45,545 bases of DNA. It comes from a virus. This document shows, piece after piece, positions 6,468 through 37,018 of this stretch. Position 1 is the stretch's first letter; each line of letters begins with the position of its first letter. A model generated the notes under the pieces. The model saw only the letters and a list, made by a program, of their open reading frames with translations, did not search any database and had not been told where the DNA came from. Location: IMG/VR virus record IMGVR_UViG_3300033141_004712, positions 1 through 45,545 of that record, one strand, 5' to 3'. Position numbers and translations under genes: made by a program.

Positions 6468-9400
6468 TCATGGTATCTCTAAACAATTTAATATTAAAGT
6501 TCCTGTAAAATTACTATTTATATCAAATACTATTGATGTTATTTTTGTAGTGCTATACCACCCACCATTATGAATTTGAGAGCCATAACGGTCACTGCTT
6601 ACAGCACCGATATTAGAATAGATTGCATGCCAATTTTGACGATAATTTTGAATATTAATTTCACCATTTATTTCATAAGAACTTCCAAATGGGTCTCTAA
6701 AAAAGAAAAAATTTGATGTAGTTCCTCTATCAATATTAACTGTATCCCAACTAACTCCAGTATGAACAAAAGATTGCAAAATAGTGCCATGATAATTATT
6801 GCCAGTATCTCCATTTAAATGATACCTAATTCCATAATATTGGGGGGAAGTTATAGCTCCAAATATATTTATTTTTATCATATCACACCAATCAGGAATT
6901 GTTAAAGTATAAGAGGAACTATTTATTAAATTTGTAGAAGATGCTATTGAAAATTGCCCTTTGTTTCTTATATATCCACTTGTGCTAACACTCAACACAT
7001 ACCCATCGCTCGTGTCAGAATTGCTGTCAATTGTCAGGGCATAGGTTTCAGAACTATTGGCATTTATTGTCATTGAACTTGACAACGTCATTCCACCTGC
7101 CACATCTATATTGCTTCCGCTTTCTGTCATTATGCTATCACCGACGGCATTGGCGGAAGTAAATTTAGCAATCTTGCCAGTAGTGCCAGAACCGCCTACA
7201 CCTGCAGCGGCACTTGTCTGCTTTGTGCCGTCTGGAAATATTATACCACCTGAATATGTGGAAGAAGATAAAATGATATTGCCATCTTTCACATCAAGTT
7301 TCTCGGAAGGCGAAGTCGTCCCTATGCCGACATTGCCATTATCACTGATTAACATTAAATCTTTAGAATTTTTATTGCTATAAAACCGAAAACCATAATC
7401 CCCCCAATATAAAAACTGGGCTTTTAACACATCGCCTATTTTGAATGAAATATAATCATTGTAGCCCACCGCACTATTTAGAAATAATTGTGTGTGTCCA
7501 GAGGCGGGACGATTTATTGAAACATCGCCATTTTCAACTTCTAACTTATAAGAAGGCGAATTTGTTCCAATCCCAACCTTTCCCCCACTCACCACAAAAG
7601 TAGAGCCACCGACGGAAAAGTCGCTGTTTTGGAAGGTTACCGAAGAGGTTTCAGTGAGGTCAATTTTATCACCTAAAGCGGATTGTATGTCGCTGTTTAT
7701 GCCAGAAGTGTTCTGTATGTCGCCGTAAATACTCCCAGAGGCGTTTATATTGCCGGTGTTTAACTCTGTTGTGTCTATTATCCCATTATCGCTTATCGTA
7801 GTGCAAGGCGGAGCTCCGCAACCATCGCCTATACCAATAACATCATTAAAAGTAGTAGAACTCTGGAAGGTATGAACCCCTGTCCAGTTATAGTTAGCCG
7901 ATTGGTCTGCCGTTAATCCTGTTAAATTTGAACCATCGCCATAATATGTTGCATTAGTAATTAAATTGCCATTCATATCTAAATCAGTGCCAAAAATAGA
8001 ACCGCCAGAAGATAATCCAAGAATTTGACTGCCGCCAGCATAAAGTCGCAAATAACTTGACTCGTTATTTCTTATGACCGCACCTAAAGCATTGTCATAA
8101 TATATGCGTAAACCGTCATTTATGGTATTGCCCTCTAAAGCATTTGTAAATAAAAGGGACTTTGAACATGAAGCCCCGTGTAATTGAATTGTGCCAGCAG
8201 CAGGCGTGGCAATATTATACCCCATAGCGCCTGCACCGCTAATATATAATTGGCTGGAAGTCTTTAATTGGTAATTACCTAAATCCACTTCGCCTGTCGC
8301 TCCAGAATAAGGAACTTTATCCGCCTCAAGCGTAGCGGTAGAAGTCTCAAGGTCGTCAATGTCAGAAGCATTGGTAGATACATTTCCTGCTATTGTGGTA
8401 GTATCAGTCGCTATGGCATTATCAGCCGCTTGCCTGTCGGCTATTTCCTGATTTAGGTTTGCTTCCAGCGTGGCAGTGGAACTCTCAAGATTGGCAATAT
8501 CAGTATCATTTGAGGTAATTTCAGTTTGCAAATCTCCTGTTGATACCTGCAAATTGTAAATATCAGTATCATTGCTGTCAATTTGGCTTTGAAGATTTGC
8601 AGTAGATGTCTTCAAATCTGCCACATCATTTTGCAGCACCACTATTTGTGGAGTGAGGTTTGAAGCGGGTATGGCAACATTGGAAGGGGAAGTCCCGCCA
8701 AAATATATCTCAATGTCAGGCGAACCCCCATTGCCATAAACATAAGCGTATCCCGCCACTTCTACCCTGTCGCCGTCGTCTAATTTAATATCGGTTGAAG
8801 AAGTAATCAAATCATACAATTGCGGCGTGGATTGTAATTCCCCCGAGTAACCAGTGGTTGAAATAACAATTTCTTCCCCGCCTGATTTGCGAATAGTGAT
8901 AACGCCATACAATCTGACATTTTTATTACCAGAAGTTTTTGCGCCGTAAATCTTTATATCCCATTGCCCAGCGACAATATCCCTTGTAAGCGGAAAGCCG
9001 TCATTCGTAACCCACCGACCAAGTAACGTGTTTCCGTCAGATAGTGAATTGTAGGTAATCGTTGAAACAGAGGAAAGTGTGTTACTTGAATACATTACAT
9101 AGTGCCCGCCGATGTCGGAGGTGTCGTTTGTGAAGTAGTAATTCTCAACGCCTGAAACAGAGGGCGCGTCCCAATACATCGTTCCGTCGGTAGAAATGTT
9201 TAGAACATACCCCTTCCCCACTTTCCCGTTGAATGGCGGTAAGTAATAGGTGAAACTTGAAACTTGATTTCCCGCGTTAATTATAACATTGTAAGTGCCT
9301 GTTGAAAAAATCAAATCAGCATTATTCAAAATAAGGTTTCCTGTCATCGTATCGCCTGATTTAAGAACATTTTGAGAGGCATAACCACCTTCAATATTTA

Positions 9401-33736: not shown

Positions 33737-33747
33737 TTGTGCAATAT

Positions 33748-33786
33748 GCGCCGGGCGCATAATAGCGCCCGGCGTATTTTTATTTT
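33748..33786 (+). terminator. rho-independent terminator after the first early gene
   Basis: A 10-bp GC stem (CGCCGGGCGC, loop ATAATA, GCGCCCGGCG) is followed by TATTTTTATTTT. It closes the 33278 unit. Confidence 0.85.
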
Positions 33787-34143: not shown

Positions 34144-34419
34144 ATGGAAATAATTGTAATGAATGGCGGTAAAAAGAAGCCAAGAGTCGCAAAGATTCTT
34201 GGCTTGAATAAAAAATCCGGGTTTCGGAGGGAATATCTTACGTCAACTCTTGTGGAGGACCAAGGAAAAAAGTATAGGTTCTCGATTAGAGAAACAGGAA
34301 TTTATGAAGTTTTCGTACCCTGGCATCAAAACACCACTAAGTATTTTTGTTATAAAAATGGGATGTTAAGAAGGATATCCCATAAGGAAGCAATCGTAAT
34401 TGCAATAACTCAACAATAA
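34144..34419 (+). CDS. hypothetical protein, 91 residues
   Basis: The ATG at 34144 follows TTGGAGGAAAA and is preferred over the TTG at 34132. A basic, beta-rich protein (KKYRFSIRETGIYEVFVPWHQ). It is two genes upstream of the amidoligase. No family recognised. It could be a partner or substrate of that system, by position only. Confidence 0.65.
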   Translation: MEIIVMNGGKKKPRVAKILGLNKKSGFRREYLTSTLVEDQGKKYRFSIRETGIYEVFVPWHQNTTKYFCYKNGMLRRISHKEAIVIAITQQ

Positions 34420-34446
34420 CTCAAGGAGGAAAGTAAGGAGGAAAGT
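34420..34446 (+). repeat. duplicated ribosome-site segment
   Basis: AAGGAGGAAAGT occurs twice in tandem directly before the ATG at 34447. Confidence 0.85.
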
Positions 34447-34830
34447 ATGGAAGAAAAGAAAAATGAAATCGGAAAAATAAGTTGCGTTAGAAATAAAAAT
34501 GGCGTAACAATAAACATCAGTTCTGCCTTGATACACGAGTATCTTAAAGGGACAGAATTGACAGATGAAAATGTGCGGCTTCTCACGGGCCGCGTGTGCT
34601 ATGGAAACAACTATTTTCGTGTGGAAATGGATGAAATTATCCAAAAGTTGCACGAAAGTAGTGAGATTAGTATAACGAAACCCGGTCTTATTCAGAGAGG
34701 CGTGCTCTCGGAAATCATCTATAAGATCGGGGTAAAGCTGAAAGACATATATAAAGACTTCCTAAAAAAGGTGGAAATGGAGGTTGTGATTAAAAACGGC
34801 GAGGCCGAAAGGGGGGAAAATGGAAGATAG
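34447..34830 (+). CDS. hypothetical protein, 127 residues
   Basis: Preceded by a duplicated AAGGAGGAAAGT, and overlapping the amidoligase start by 11 bp, so probably translated together with it. Mixed alpha/beta sequence with a Lys/Glu-rich C-terminus. No family recognised. Confidence 0.65.
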   Translation: MEEKKNEIGKISCVRNKNGVTINISSALIHEYLKGTELTDENVRLLTGRVCYGNNYFRVEMDEIIQKLHESSEISITKPGLIQRGVLSEIIYKIGVKLKDIYKDFLKKVEMEVVIKNGEAERGENGR

Positions 34831-35596
34831 TTTCTCCTTTATACGGGGGGTAGGGATAGAGATGGAGGGTCTCTACAAGAGAGATGAGAACGATGAAGAA
34901 GAAATCGTCGTGCGGGGTGACTTCACGATGGATAGGGAAAACTATTTCCTTATGGATGAAATAAAGGGGGATAGTTCTATTCGTTGGCAAGAAGGTTACC
35001 GTGCACGGGAAATTACTTCCCGCGTTCTCAAAAAGCGGAGTGAAGTAGAAAGATTTATAAATTACTTTACTCCTGCACTTACCAATGAATCTTGCGGAAT
35101 GCACATCCATATTTCGCTTGATAATCTCAACATAAATGTGTTAGTAAACGAGAAGTCATTCCGCCGGGAGTTTTATTCTTTCTTAAGAGAATTTGCTTCG
35201 GAGAGAGATTGGCGACGCTTGAAAGAGAGAGTAGAAGGAAGAAATCATTATTGCTTAAGGGGAAGCAATTTCGGCGATGTGGAGTCTCGGTACTCTTCAA
35301 GGAGTAGATACAGAATACTCAATATTCACTCCTATCTTGAGCATAAGACAATGGAATGCAGAGTTTTTCCTTGCTATTCTGTGGTAAAGAAAAATATGGA
35401 GATGGCATTTGCCTATTTGGACTTCGTAGAGGGATATTTTTCTCGGTTGTATGCTTCCAAGCGGAGTCGCAATAGACTTCTCAAACTATATCTCCTACCA
35501 ATTGAAACAAAGGTAGAAGAAGATGAAGAGGAGATGCCGAAGCACTTAAGAGAAATTATACATCAAGAAGCGCCGCCATTGGTGTTGACTGTTTAA
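34820..35596 (+). CDS. amidoligase-like enzyme
   Basis: A 258-residue protein with the motif order of the Amidoligase_2 family, a glutamine-synthetase-like fold: G-I-E-M-E (12-16), D-S-S-I (51-54), an E-I-T segment at 64-66, N-E-S-C-G-M-H-I-H (89-97), and R-Y-R-I-L-N followed by T-M-E-C-R (163-181). These enzymes are predicted to form amide or isopeptide bonds using ATP. The next gene encodes a glutamine amidotransferase, which would supply ammonia. Substrate unknown. AAAGGGGGG precedes the start. Confidence 0.75.
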   Translation: MEDSFSFIRGVGIEMEGLYKRDENDEEEIVVRGDFTMDRENYFLMDEIKGDSSIRWQEGYRAREITSRVLKKRSEVERFINYFTPALTNESCGMHIHISLDNLNINVLVNEKSFRREFYSFLREFASERDWRRLKERVEGRNHYCLRGSNFGDVESRYSSRSRYRILNIHSYLEHKTMECRVFPCYSVVKKNMEMAFAYLDFVEGYFSRLYASKRSRNRLLKLYLLPIETKVEEDEEEMPKHLREIIHQEAPPLVLTV

Positions 35597-35644
35597 AAGG
35601 AGAAAAGAATGAGGAAAGTAAAAAGAAAGAAAAAAGGAGGAAAA

Positions 35645-36364
35645 ATGTGTGTGATAGTGGTTTGCAAGGAGAGAAGAGAGACGTTAGAAAATATGCGCAG
35701 ACAAGAGTTCCATAATAGCGATGGAAATGGAATTGCTTGGCTGGAAAATGGTGAGGTTCATTGGAGAAAAGGCATTAACTTTGAGAAATTGGCACATATC
35801 AGTTCTAATGTAAAATTGCCGTATGTAATGCACTTTCGTATTGCGACGGCAGGCGGGAAAGGCAAAGAATTATGCCATCCGTTTCCTGTGGACCACATCA
35901 ATAATGGGGTAAGAGGGACTGCTAAGAAAGTGCTTTTTCACAATGGCCATTATTCCAATTGGGCAGAAGACTTACGGATGTTAATGCTTCTGGGCCGCCT
36001 TAAGGATATTCCCGAAGGTGATATAGGCGATACTAGGGCCTTATCTATAATCACTCACGTTGTGGGTGATTCCTATCTTTCTGCCATAGATGGTAATAAT
36101 AAATTCTGCTTGTTTGGGACAGAGTGCATAAAGTTCTTCGGGTATTGGCAGGAAGAAAGAGGTATTTATTACTCCAATAAGAATTGGGAAACTCCTGCAT
36201 ATTGGGGAACGCTGGGCCGACAATACAGCTTAGGCGAAGAATACGAACCCGTCACTGCGCAAGAGCTGGGGGCAGAAGCAGACCCGTTATTTCAAGGGAG
36301 TCTTTTTGCCAAAAGGAAGAAAAAAAGAAGGAGGAATAGGTTCTTAAATGTTGGTAGCGTTTAA
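35645..36364 (+). CDS. class II glutamine amidotransferase (Ntn hydrolase)
   Basis: A 239-residue protein. Start chosen at ATG 35645, directly after AAGGAGG, so that Cys2 becomes the N-terminal nucleophile. Further family motifs: N-S-D-G-N-G (24-29), H-F-R-I-A-T (63-68), H-P-F (78-80), F-H-N-G (98-101) and G-D-T (128-130). It hydrolyses glutamine to ammonia and glutamate. No synthetase domain is fused. The preceding amidoligase is the likely ammonia acceptor partner. A 3' tail is Lys/Arg-rich. Confidence 0.85.
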   Translation: MCVIVVCKERRETLENMRRQEFHNSDGNGIAWLENGEVHWRKGINFEKLAHISSNVKLPYVMHFRIATAGGKGKELCHPFPVDHINNGVRGTAKKVLFHNGHYSNWAEDLRMLMLLGRLKDIPEGDIGDTRALSIITHVVGDSYLSAIDGNNKFCLFGTECIKFFGYWQEERGIYYSNKNWETPAYWGTLGRQYSLGEEYEPVTAQELGAEADPLFQGSLFAKRKKKRRRNRFLNVGSV

Positions 36365-36378
36365 GGAACAGCAGAGCC

Positions 36379-36398
36379 GCCCGGGCGAAAGCCCGGGC
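36379..36398 (+). promoter_or_regulatory. GC-rich hairpin with GAAA tetraloop, third copy at the ribosome site
   Basis: GCCCGGGC at 36379-36386 and 36391-36398 pair perfectly around GAAA. A third GCCCGGGC at 36421-36428 lies directly before AAGGAGG of the next gene and can pair with either copy, because the unit is self-complementary. No T-run follows. Possible RNA switch or processing signal. Confidence 0.6.
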
Positions 36399-36440
36399 TA
36401 ATGCGCAAGCCCGGTGGCAAGCCCGGGCGAAGGAGGAAAA

Positions 36441-36620
36441 ATGAAACCAGAAGAAATATTGGAAAGAGAACTCAAAAAACTAAAGGAGTATTGTGAAGGT
36501 AACCCGGACTTTGTGAGGGAATTGGTGAAAGTATTGGAGAGAGAATACGCCAAAGGATACAATATGGGTTATAAAGATGGCTACGACGCTTTGGTCTTAG
36601 GAGAAGAGGAGGGAAAATGA
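36441..36620 (+). CDS. 59-residue hypothetical protein
   Basis: AAGGAGG before the ATG. Acidic, helical (EEILERELKKLKEYCEG, VREL, VLEREYAKGYNMGYKDG). Overlaps the following gene (ATGA). Unknown function. Confidence 0.7.
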   Translation: MKPEEILERELKKLKEYCEGNPDFVRELVKVLEREYAKGYNMGYKDGYDALVLGEEEGK

Positions 36621-37018
36621 AAGTAAAAAGTCTAAAAGTAATGAAAGATGTAATGAAAAACTCCAATGGAATTAAAAGAGAAGTGATAAAAGACGCTTTG
36701 GAGGTTGCTTCAAATATAGAAGACTTTGTCTCTTATTTGAAGGACGTGTCAGAGCACGGGTGTGTTTCTGGCATCTGCACTTCCCTCATAGCATATGCTG
36801 ACACAGAAAAGTTTTATGATACATATGAGGAAGAAATAGAGGATATGCTGGAAGAATATCGCGTGGTTTTTGGTGCCAAAAATCGGCTTGAACTAATTTC
36901 TACGTTTAATGGAGCGGAAAATGTGGGTAGTGTGCTCCAAGAGAAAAATCTTCTGGCATGGTTTGCTTACGAGGAACGGGCAAGACAGATTCTGAAGGAG
37001 TATTTTGATTACGAATAA
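36617..37018 (+). CDS. hypothetical protein, 133 residues
   Basis: Coupled to the previous gene by ATGA with GAGGAGG upstream. Helical and acidic (DALEVASNIEDFVSYLKDVSE, YDTYEEEIEDMLEEYRVV). No family recognised. Confidence 0.7.
   Translation: MKVKSLKVMKDVMKNSNGIKREVIKDALEVASNIEDFVSYLKDVSEHGCVSGICTSLIAYADTEKFYDTYEEEIEDMLEEYRVVFGAKNRLELISTFNGAENVGSVLQEKNLLAWFAYEERARQILKEYFDYE

Follow-up and report, generated by a model that had tools for sequence, protein, structure and literature searches.

What an amidoligase and a stand-alone glutamine amidotransferase, encoded side by side, accomplish for a phage is the question raised by positions 34,144-37,018 of the IMG/VR virus record IMGVR_UViG_3300033141_004712 (the window is the whole 45,545-base record). 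An earlier interpretation made from the letters alone, the sequence-only reading, had proposed that the two enzymes form a modification system, and all of the open reading frames (ORFs) that it listed are present where it had placed them. The amidoligase and the amidotransferase are confirmed as a real, widely conserved gene pair in a virus of bacteria. The balance of the evidence leans toward the view that the pair and a small protein encoded just upstream form the core of a phage system for glutamine-dependent amidation, in which a peptide carboxylate would be the likeliest acceptor.

The pairing is visible from the side of either enzyme. Among the 20 contigs fetched with a two-sequence alignment of amidotransferases, 19 carry an amidoligase ORF upstream on the same strand, and the remaining contig (L039) has a PF14395 ligase upstream instead. 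A search with A4, a close amidoligase pair, gave eight contigs that were new to the amidoligase searches; an amidotransferase is present in seven, and the remaining one stops 422 bp past the amidoligase. In the set fetched with the amidoligase profile, an amidotransferase is found at E < 1e-5 in 10 of 21 contigs, the other 11 comprising ten distant amidoligases without a match and one locus (L019) with a doubtful match only. The sets overlap slightly, L031 being the same contig as L012 and L048 the same contig as L043. Across all loci, the arrangement is fixed: in 39 of 39 phage pairs, both genes share a strand and the amidoligase comes first, most of the gaps between the two measuring -26 to +120 bp. 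Co-occurrence in related phages, on which the sequence-only reading had made its case depend, is therefore borne out by the gene neighborhoods. Beyond the two enzymes, BLAST clustering of the neighbors yields no gene family in more than seven of approximately 26 loci, one larger cluster having been discounted as antisense ORFs over the amidotransferase itself. Since the loci share little else, phage kinship in general fails to explain the pairing, and the clustering of the two enzymes, judged from these neighborhoods, is far beyond chance.

The amidotransferase had been read as an N-terminal nucleophile (Ntn) enzyme with all key motifs, and its catalytic residues are indeed conserved: C2, H63, R65, G70, H78, N100, G101, D129, and N178 are invariant in 24 relatives. 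The glutamine-binding Arg65, the oxyanion residues Asn100-Gly101, and Asp129 align with 1ao0, and a profile of the 24 relatives matches the glutaminase domains of GPATase and GlmS in the PDB at E values of 1e-6 to 6e-5. As a single sequence, the protein scores 15.7 bits against GATase_6, under the Pfam cut-off of 27. This miss reflects a detection threshold and is no defining feature; by its residues and profile matches, the protein is best classed as a divergent class II member. All of the relatives start at the cysteine, some of them by way of a GTG or TTG start codon. An alternative ATG at 35609, upstream of the start at 35645, would bury the cysteine. The start at 35645, which exposes Cys2 as proposed earlier, is preferred because the ribosome-binding site AAGGAGG lies just 5' of it and because Cys2 is present in 24 of 24 relatives, and on this evidence it is judged to be right. 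As a query, the amidotransferase gave no match as a single sequence in IMG/VR and none in bacterial genomes.

The assignment of the first enzyme as amidoligase-like holds as well. The protein scores 27.1 bits against PF12224 (Amidoligase_2), which passes the curated cut-off of 22, and matches PHROG 2443 ("amidoligase enzyme") at E 7e-9. In an alignment of 28 sequences, E14, E16, D51, S53, E64, G93, H95, H97, R137, E179, and R181 are invariant, and the columns of the acidic and histidine metal-ATP site (GxExE, DxS, E, GxHxH, R..N, and TxExR) are invariant or nearly so, a pattern that is as expected if the protein is an active glutamine-synthetase-like ligase. An AlphaFold2 model (pLDDT 80, pTM 0.78) finds YbdK first in a Foldseek search of the PDB (1tt4/1r8g, probability 1.00/0.99), followed by glutamine synthetase (0.69). 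The glutamine-synthetase-like fold that the sequence-only reading had predicted is thus supported by the model but not tightly. Searched alone, the amidoligase protein gave no match in the phage records, and in bacterial genomes it found one Lachnospira contig (L056), which is without an amidotransferase.

Clustering of the neighboring genes also shows a small ORF just 5' of the amidoligase in several loci, and the window has a small gene in this position. When a profile was made from ORFs adjoining the amidoligase or close to it in other phages, with the window left out, it found this gene's product at 16.2-18.6 bits (E 0.0028 in the first round, then 5e-4 to 7e-4). Among non-members, the product ranks first in the opening and final rounds; in the middle round it comes second to L044, likewise an ORF that immediately precedes an amidoligase. 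None of the 4863 scored shuffles of the protein exceeds 10.0 bits, as compared with 18.3 bits (E 7e-4) for the real sequence. Pairwise BLAST of the window protein against the L012 counterpart gives no significant score, and the relation appears only by multi-sequence profile. Two profile members (L030 and L040) do not immediately precede the pair but are approximately 4 kb away from it. The equivalent ORFs in L034, L036, and L055 are alike by eye but score just 5 to 7 bits, and the limits of the partner family are therefore uncertain. No Pfam or PHROG entry matched the family, and one of its members gave no match in an annotated phage collection. The AlphaFold2 model of the window protein, of middling confidence (pLDDT 79, pTM 0.66), adopts a small alpha/beta fold for which Foldseek finds no match in the PDB. 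These scores place the gene, weakly but significantly, in a fast-evolving family that occurs beside the amidoligase in approximately ten loci. The gene seems to be part of the enzyme set; it is uncatalogued and is the main addition of this analysis, although Iyer et al. 2009 may have noticed it earlier.

Table 1. Features of the amidoligase/amidotransferase region, with positions in the window
Feature	Position	Strand	Length	Basis
Strong intrinsic-terminator-like hairpin (predicted)	33746..33777	+		13-pair stem with 10 G-C, T-rich tail; pattern match only
Small ORF at head of unit, module membership unsupported	34144..34419	+		Ribosome-binding site present
Small upstream partner protein (putative)	34447..34830	+	127 aa	Weak profile match; overlaps amidoligase start by 11 bases
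Amidoligase P0001, Amidoligase_2 / PHROG 2443, glutamine-synthetase-like fold	34820..35596	+	258 aa	Profile match and model
Stand-alone class II (N-terminal nucleophile) glutamine amidotransferase P0002, catalytic Cys2	35645..36364	+	239 aa	Profile and residues
Small ORF downstream of amidotransferase, module membership unsupported	36441..36620	+		ORF only
DUF7222 phage protein, module membership unsupported	36617..37018	+		PF23864, 74 bits

The makeup of the loci varies in several respects. One 150-kb phage contig (L028:4787-12451) contains two successive sets of partner, amidoligase, and amidotransferase as well as a third amidoligase at 7115-7789. The amidoligases without a recognizable amidotransferase are those of L013, L015-L018, L021, and L023-L026, and an ERF recombinase gene lies near such an amidoligase in L013, L016, L018, L021, L024, and L025. 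The amidotransferases at L008:5001-5897 and L009:5001-6218 are annotated as gamma-glutamyl cyclotransferases, a cyclotransferase-like domain being seemingly fused at the C terminus.

The module corresponds to the core of the phiEco32-type peptide-ligase ("peptidoglycan modification") cassette, the idea of which reportedly goes back to a prediction in Iyer et al. 2009. The comparison covers gp86-gp83, gp80, and gp77 of phiEco32. Similar to the window, phiEco32 has an adjacent PF12224 protein (gp84) and class II amidotransferase (gp83) in the same order, with a small gene (gp85) directly 5' of the amidoligase. The main differences are that gp85 belongs to PHROG 4877, to which the small upstream gene of the window has no detectable relation, and that no PF14395 ligase, ATP-grasp ligase, or gamma-glutamyl cyclotransferase was detected in the window, a record that may be incomplete yet fully covers the surroundings of the module. 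In the relative L041, PF14395, a small gene, the amidoligase, the amidotransferase, and an ATP-grasp gene follow one another, which corresponds to gp86, gp85, gp84, gp83, and gp80. Among 22 records (the window and 21 relatives), PF14395, the "phiEco32-like COOH.NH2 ligase-type 2" family, occurs in seven, an R2K-type ATP-grasp ligase in five, and a gamma-glutamyl cyclotransferase in two. Because the extra cassette genes were not detected in the window, its module is filed as a reduced core and not as a full cassette; by gene content, it is the reduced core of a kind already known. The proposal of a modification system is accordingly upheld as to the enzyme identities and their functional pairing, but the system is not a newly found kind, being represented in phiEco32-type and OM43 phages.

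Further examples have been described. A RIO1-like cassette of seven genes with such a module has been reported (PMC5498523), and phages of OM43 (Methylophilales) have been described with an amidoligase and a GATase, PF12224 and PF13522 (PMC10580990). In the OM43 phages MEP401 and MEP402, the two genes are adjacent, in MEP402 in the order of the window; in contrast, the amidotransferase is 28% identical to that of the window, the amidoligase is much longer (548 aa), and no upstream partner of the window type was found. An amidoligase and a glutamine amidotransferase are also annotated in Pseudomonas phage tf, and the LUZ24-like phages, to which it belongs, can be likened to the window in having both genes in the replication region, by published description only (PMC3517423). 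Outside of phages, the MurT/GatD report (PMC3267633) describes a separate glutaminase and ATP-dependent synthetase that amidate peptidoglycan. The window pair would work in a like manner, with a carboxylate amidated by separate proteins, but the two systems are without homology.

In the mechanism that these identities suggest, the amidotransferase would lose its initiator methionine, and the exposed cysteine would hydrolyze glutamine to glutamate and ammonia. The amidoligase would use ATP to phosphorylate the acceptor carboxylate, and attack by the ammonia would yield the amide. The small protein would probably serve as a third subunit or adaptor, either positioning the substrate or docking both enzymes. 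The coupling of glutaminase and synthetase is proposed because of the chemistry of both families and the fixed coupling of the genes. The feeding of ammonia from a glutaminase to a synthetase is established chemistry, as in GlmS, PurF, asparagine synthetase B, and MurT/GatD, the last of which pairs a Mur-ligase fold (MurT) with a class I amidotransferase (GatD). The likeliest acceptor would be a peptide carboxylate that is altered during infection, for example in the stem peptide of peptidoglycan or in a side chain of a host protein; a peptide, protein, or peptidoglycan carboxylate is favored because relatives have the peptide-ligase context brought out by the comparison with phiEco32. The analysis shows the enzyme identities, the conservation of the catalytic residues, the fixed order of the genes, and the conserved third gene; we infer that ammonia passes from one protein to the other, what the acceptor is, and how the phage benefits. 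A bolder suggestion, which we regard as possible but hold tentatively, is that the working unit could be a three-protein machine in which the small protein is a specificity subunit or even the amidated peptide; phages would then swap targets by changing the small protein and keep the chemistry.

Several observations weigh against an amidation system of this composition. The structural matches of the amidoligase reach only E 2.6e-3 with TM-scores of approximately 0.4 in Foldseek, and the homology of the partner rests on one significant but weak profile score. The 10 of 21 profile-fetched contigs that have a distant amidoligase without a recognizable amidotransferase indicate that amidoligases in the wider family can function with no amidotransferase. 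No biochemistry on this family was found in the literature. Phage amidoligase and amidotransferase genes have been annotated since 2009, their role is in the literature still "suggested" or said to require investigation, and no in vivo substrate was found there. The window contains a compact version that fits two enzymes and a single partner into approximately 1.9 kb and has none of the additional phiEco32 ligases, which makes it convenient for substrate finding, and the conserved upstream gene provides a concrete third component for substrate tests.

The same genes can be read in terms of peptide remodeling, in which the amidoligase would attach an amino acid or a peptide to a carboxylate, gamma-glutamyl or other, and the amidotransferase-like protein would act as an amidase or gamma-glutamyl hydrolase and take off a group already present. 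This account is unlikely, although it has some weight. Close relatives add a PF14395 ligase, an ATP-grasp ligase, and sometimes a gamma-glutamyl cyclotransferase, which suggests multi-step peptide building; the annotation of the RIO1-like cassette calls the amidotransferase and cyclotransferase degradative (PMC5498523); and the amidotransferases of L008 and L009 are the ones with the apparent cyclotransferase-like fusion. The second ligase, ATP-grasp protein, and cyclotransferase are, however, not detected in the window, and the tight one-to-one coupling and the full set of glutamine-binding residues are what a synthetase working with a glutaminase would predict. Amidation of a small molecule, such as a nucleotide-type or secondary metabolite, against host defense or for take-over of the host, is a serious rival to a peptide acceptor, even if rather improbable in our estimate. 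No secretion or membrane feature was noticed on reading the three proteins, no dedicated prediction having been run. A role in secondary metabolism has been suggested for such genes in mycobacteriophage Marvin, as cited in PMC10580990. On the other hand, no linked metabolite enzymes were recognized in the window, and the PF14395/ATP-grasp peptide-ligase context of the relatives favors peptides.

A nucleobase is a far less probable acceptor. In this scheme, the pair would serve phage DNA by amidating a carboxylated base, for instance 7-carboxy-7-deazaguanine. Each of the four distant loci L002 and L004-L006 does have an amidoligase and a GlmS-like amidotransferase together with QueC in one record, and L005 also shows a QueE-like radical SAM gene. 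In the window and in the 21 searched records of relatives, some of which may be fragments, QueC is absent, and deazaguanine modification was rejected for the clade of the window on this ground. The distinct pair in L002, L004, L005, and L006, considered in its own right, hints that deazaguanine DNA modification may involve an amidation step. That the genes are neighboring but functionally unrelated, or decayed, is scarcely credible: the amidotransferase alone falls under the Pfam cut-off, yet its catalytic residues are invariant, and 39 of 39 pairs keep a fixed order in otherwise dissimilar phages. Decay and chance adjacency are strongly contradicted by these two results. Glutamine-dependent amidation by the pair and its partner is therefore retained as the preferred interpretation.

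The pair had also been described as embedded in four or five small genes. This description stands for the partner gene, which shows evidence of belonging to the module, and not for the other three small ORFs of Table 1, which are not conserved with it. The ORF at the head of the unit has no family match and no homologue near the pair in related loci; the ORF that follows the amidotransferase has no family match above noise and is absent from related loci; and no homologue of the DUF7222 protein lies beside another pair in the fetched loci at BLAST E 1e-5. SUKH_5, ZapC, and DALR were considered for the small proteins and rejected as weak matches below the cut-offs.

Structural genes of the virus (portal and terminase) occupy the minus strand, and a plus-strand unit contains genes for an ERF recombinase, a phage exonuclease, a NinG-like protein, and a DnaB-like protein. 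The module is at the head of this unit, just upstream of these genes, and early expression, which the sequence-only reading had anticipated, would be consistent with this position. The predicted hairpin of Table 1 probably closes the preceding unit, and the transcript of the module should in that case begin downstream of it. A DNA-level search of the region against 50,697 phage records gave zero matches, the window ERF used as a bridge to sister phages found none, and PADLOC reported nothing for the amidoligase/amidotransferase pair. Elsewhere in the window, positions 1815-2729 encode a phage radical-SAM protein (PHROG 9298), which a protein (L056:2512-3624) encoded a few kb upstream of the Lachnospira amidoligase resembles, by eye only. 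Between the amidotransferase and the next small ORF, positions 36378-36430 consist of very GC-rich imperfect repeats, AGCCCGGGC in three copies, which are the sole copies in the window. These repeats fold as a strong hairpin (-37.6 kcal/mol, z -3.2 versus shuffles) that ends right at the ribosome-binding site of that ORF.

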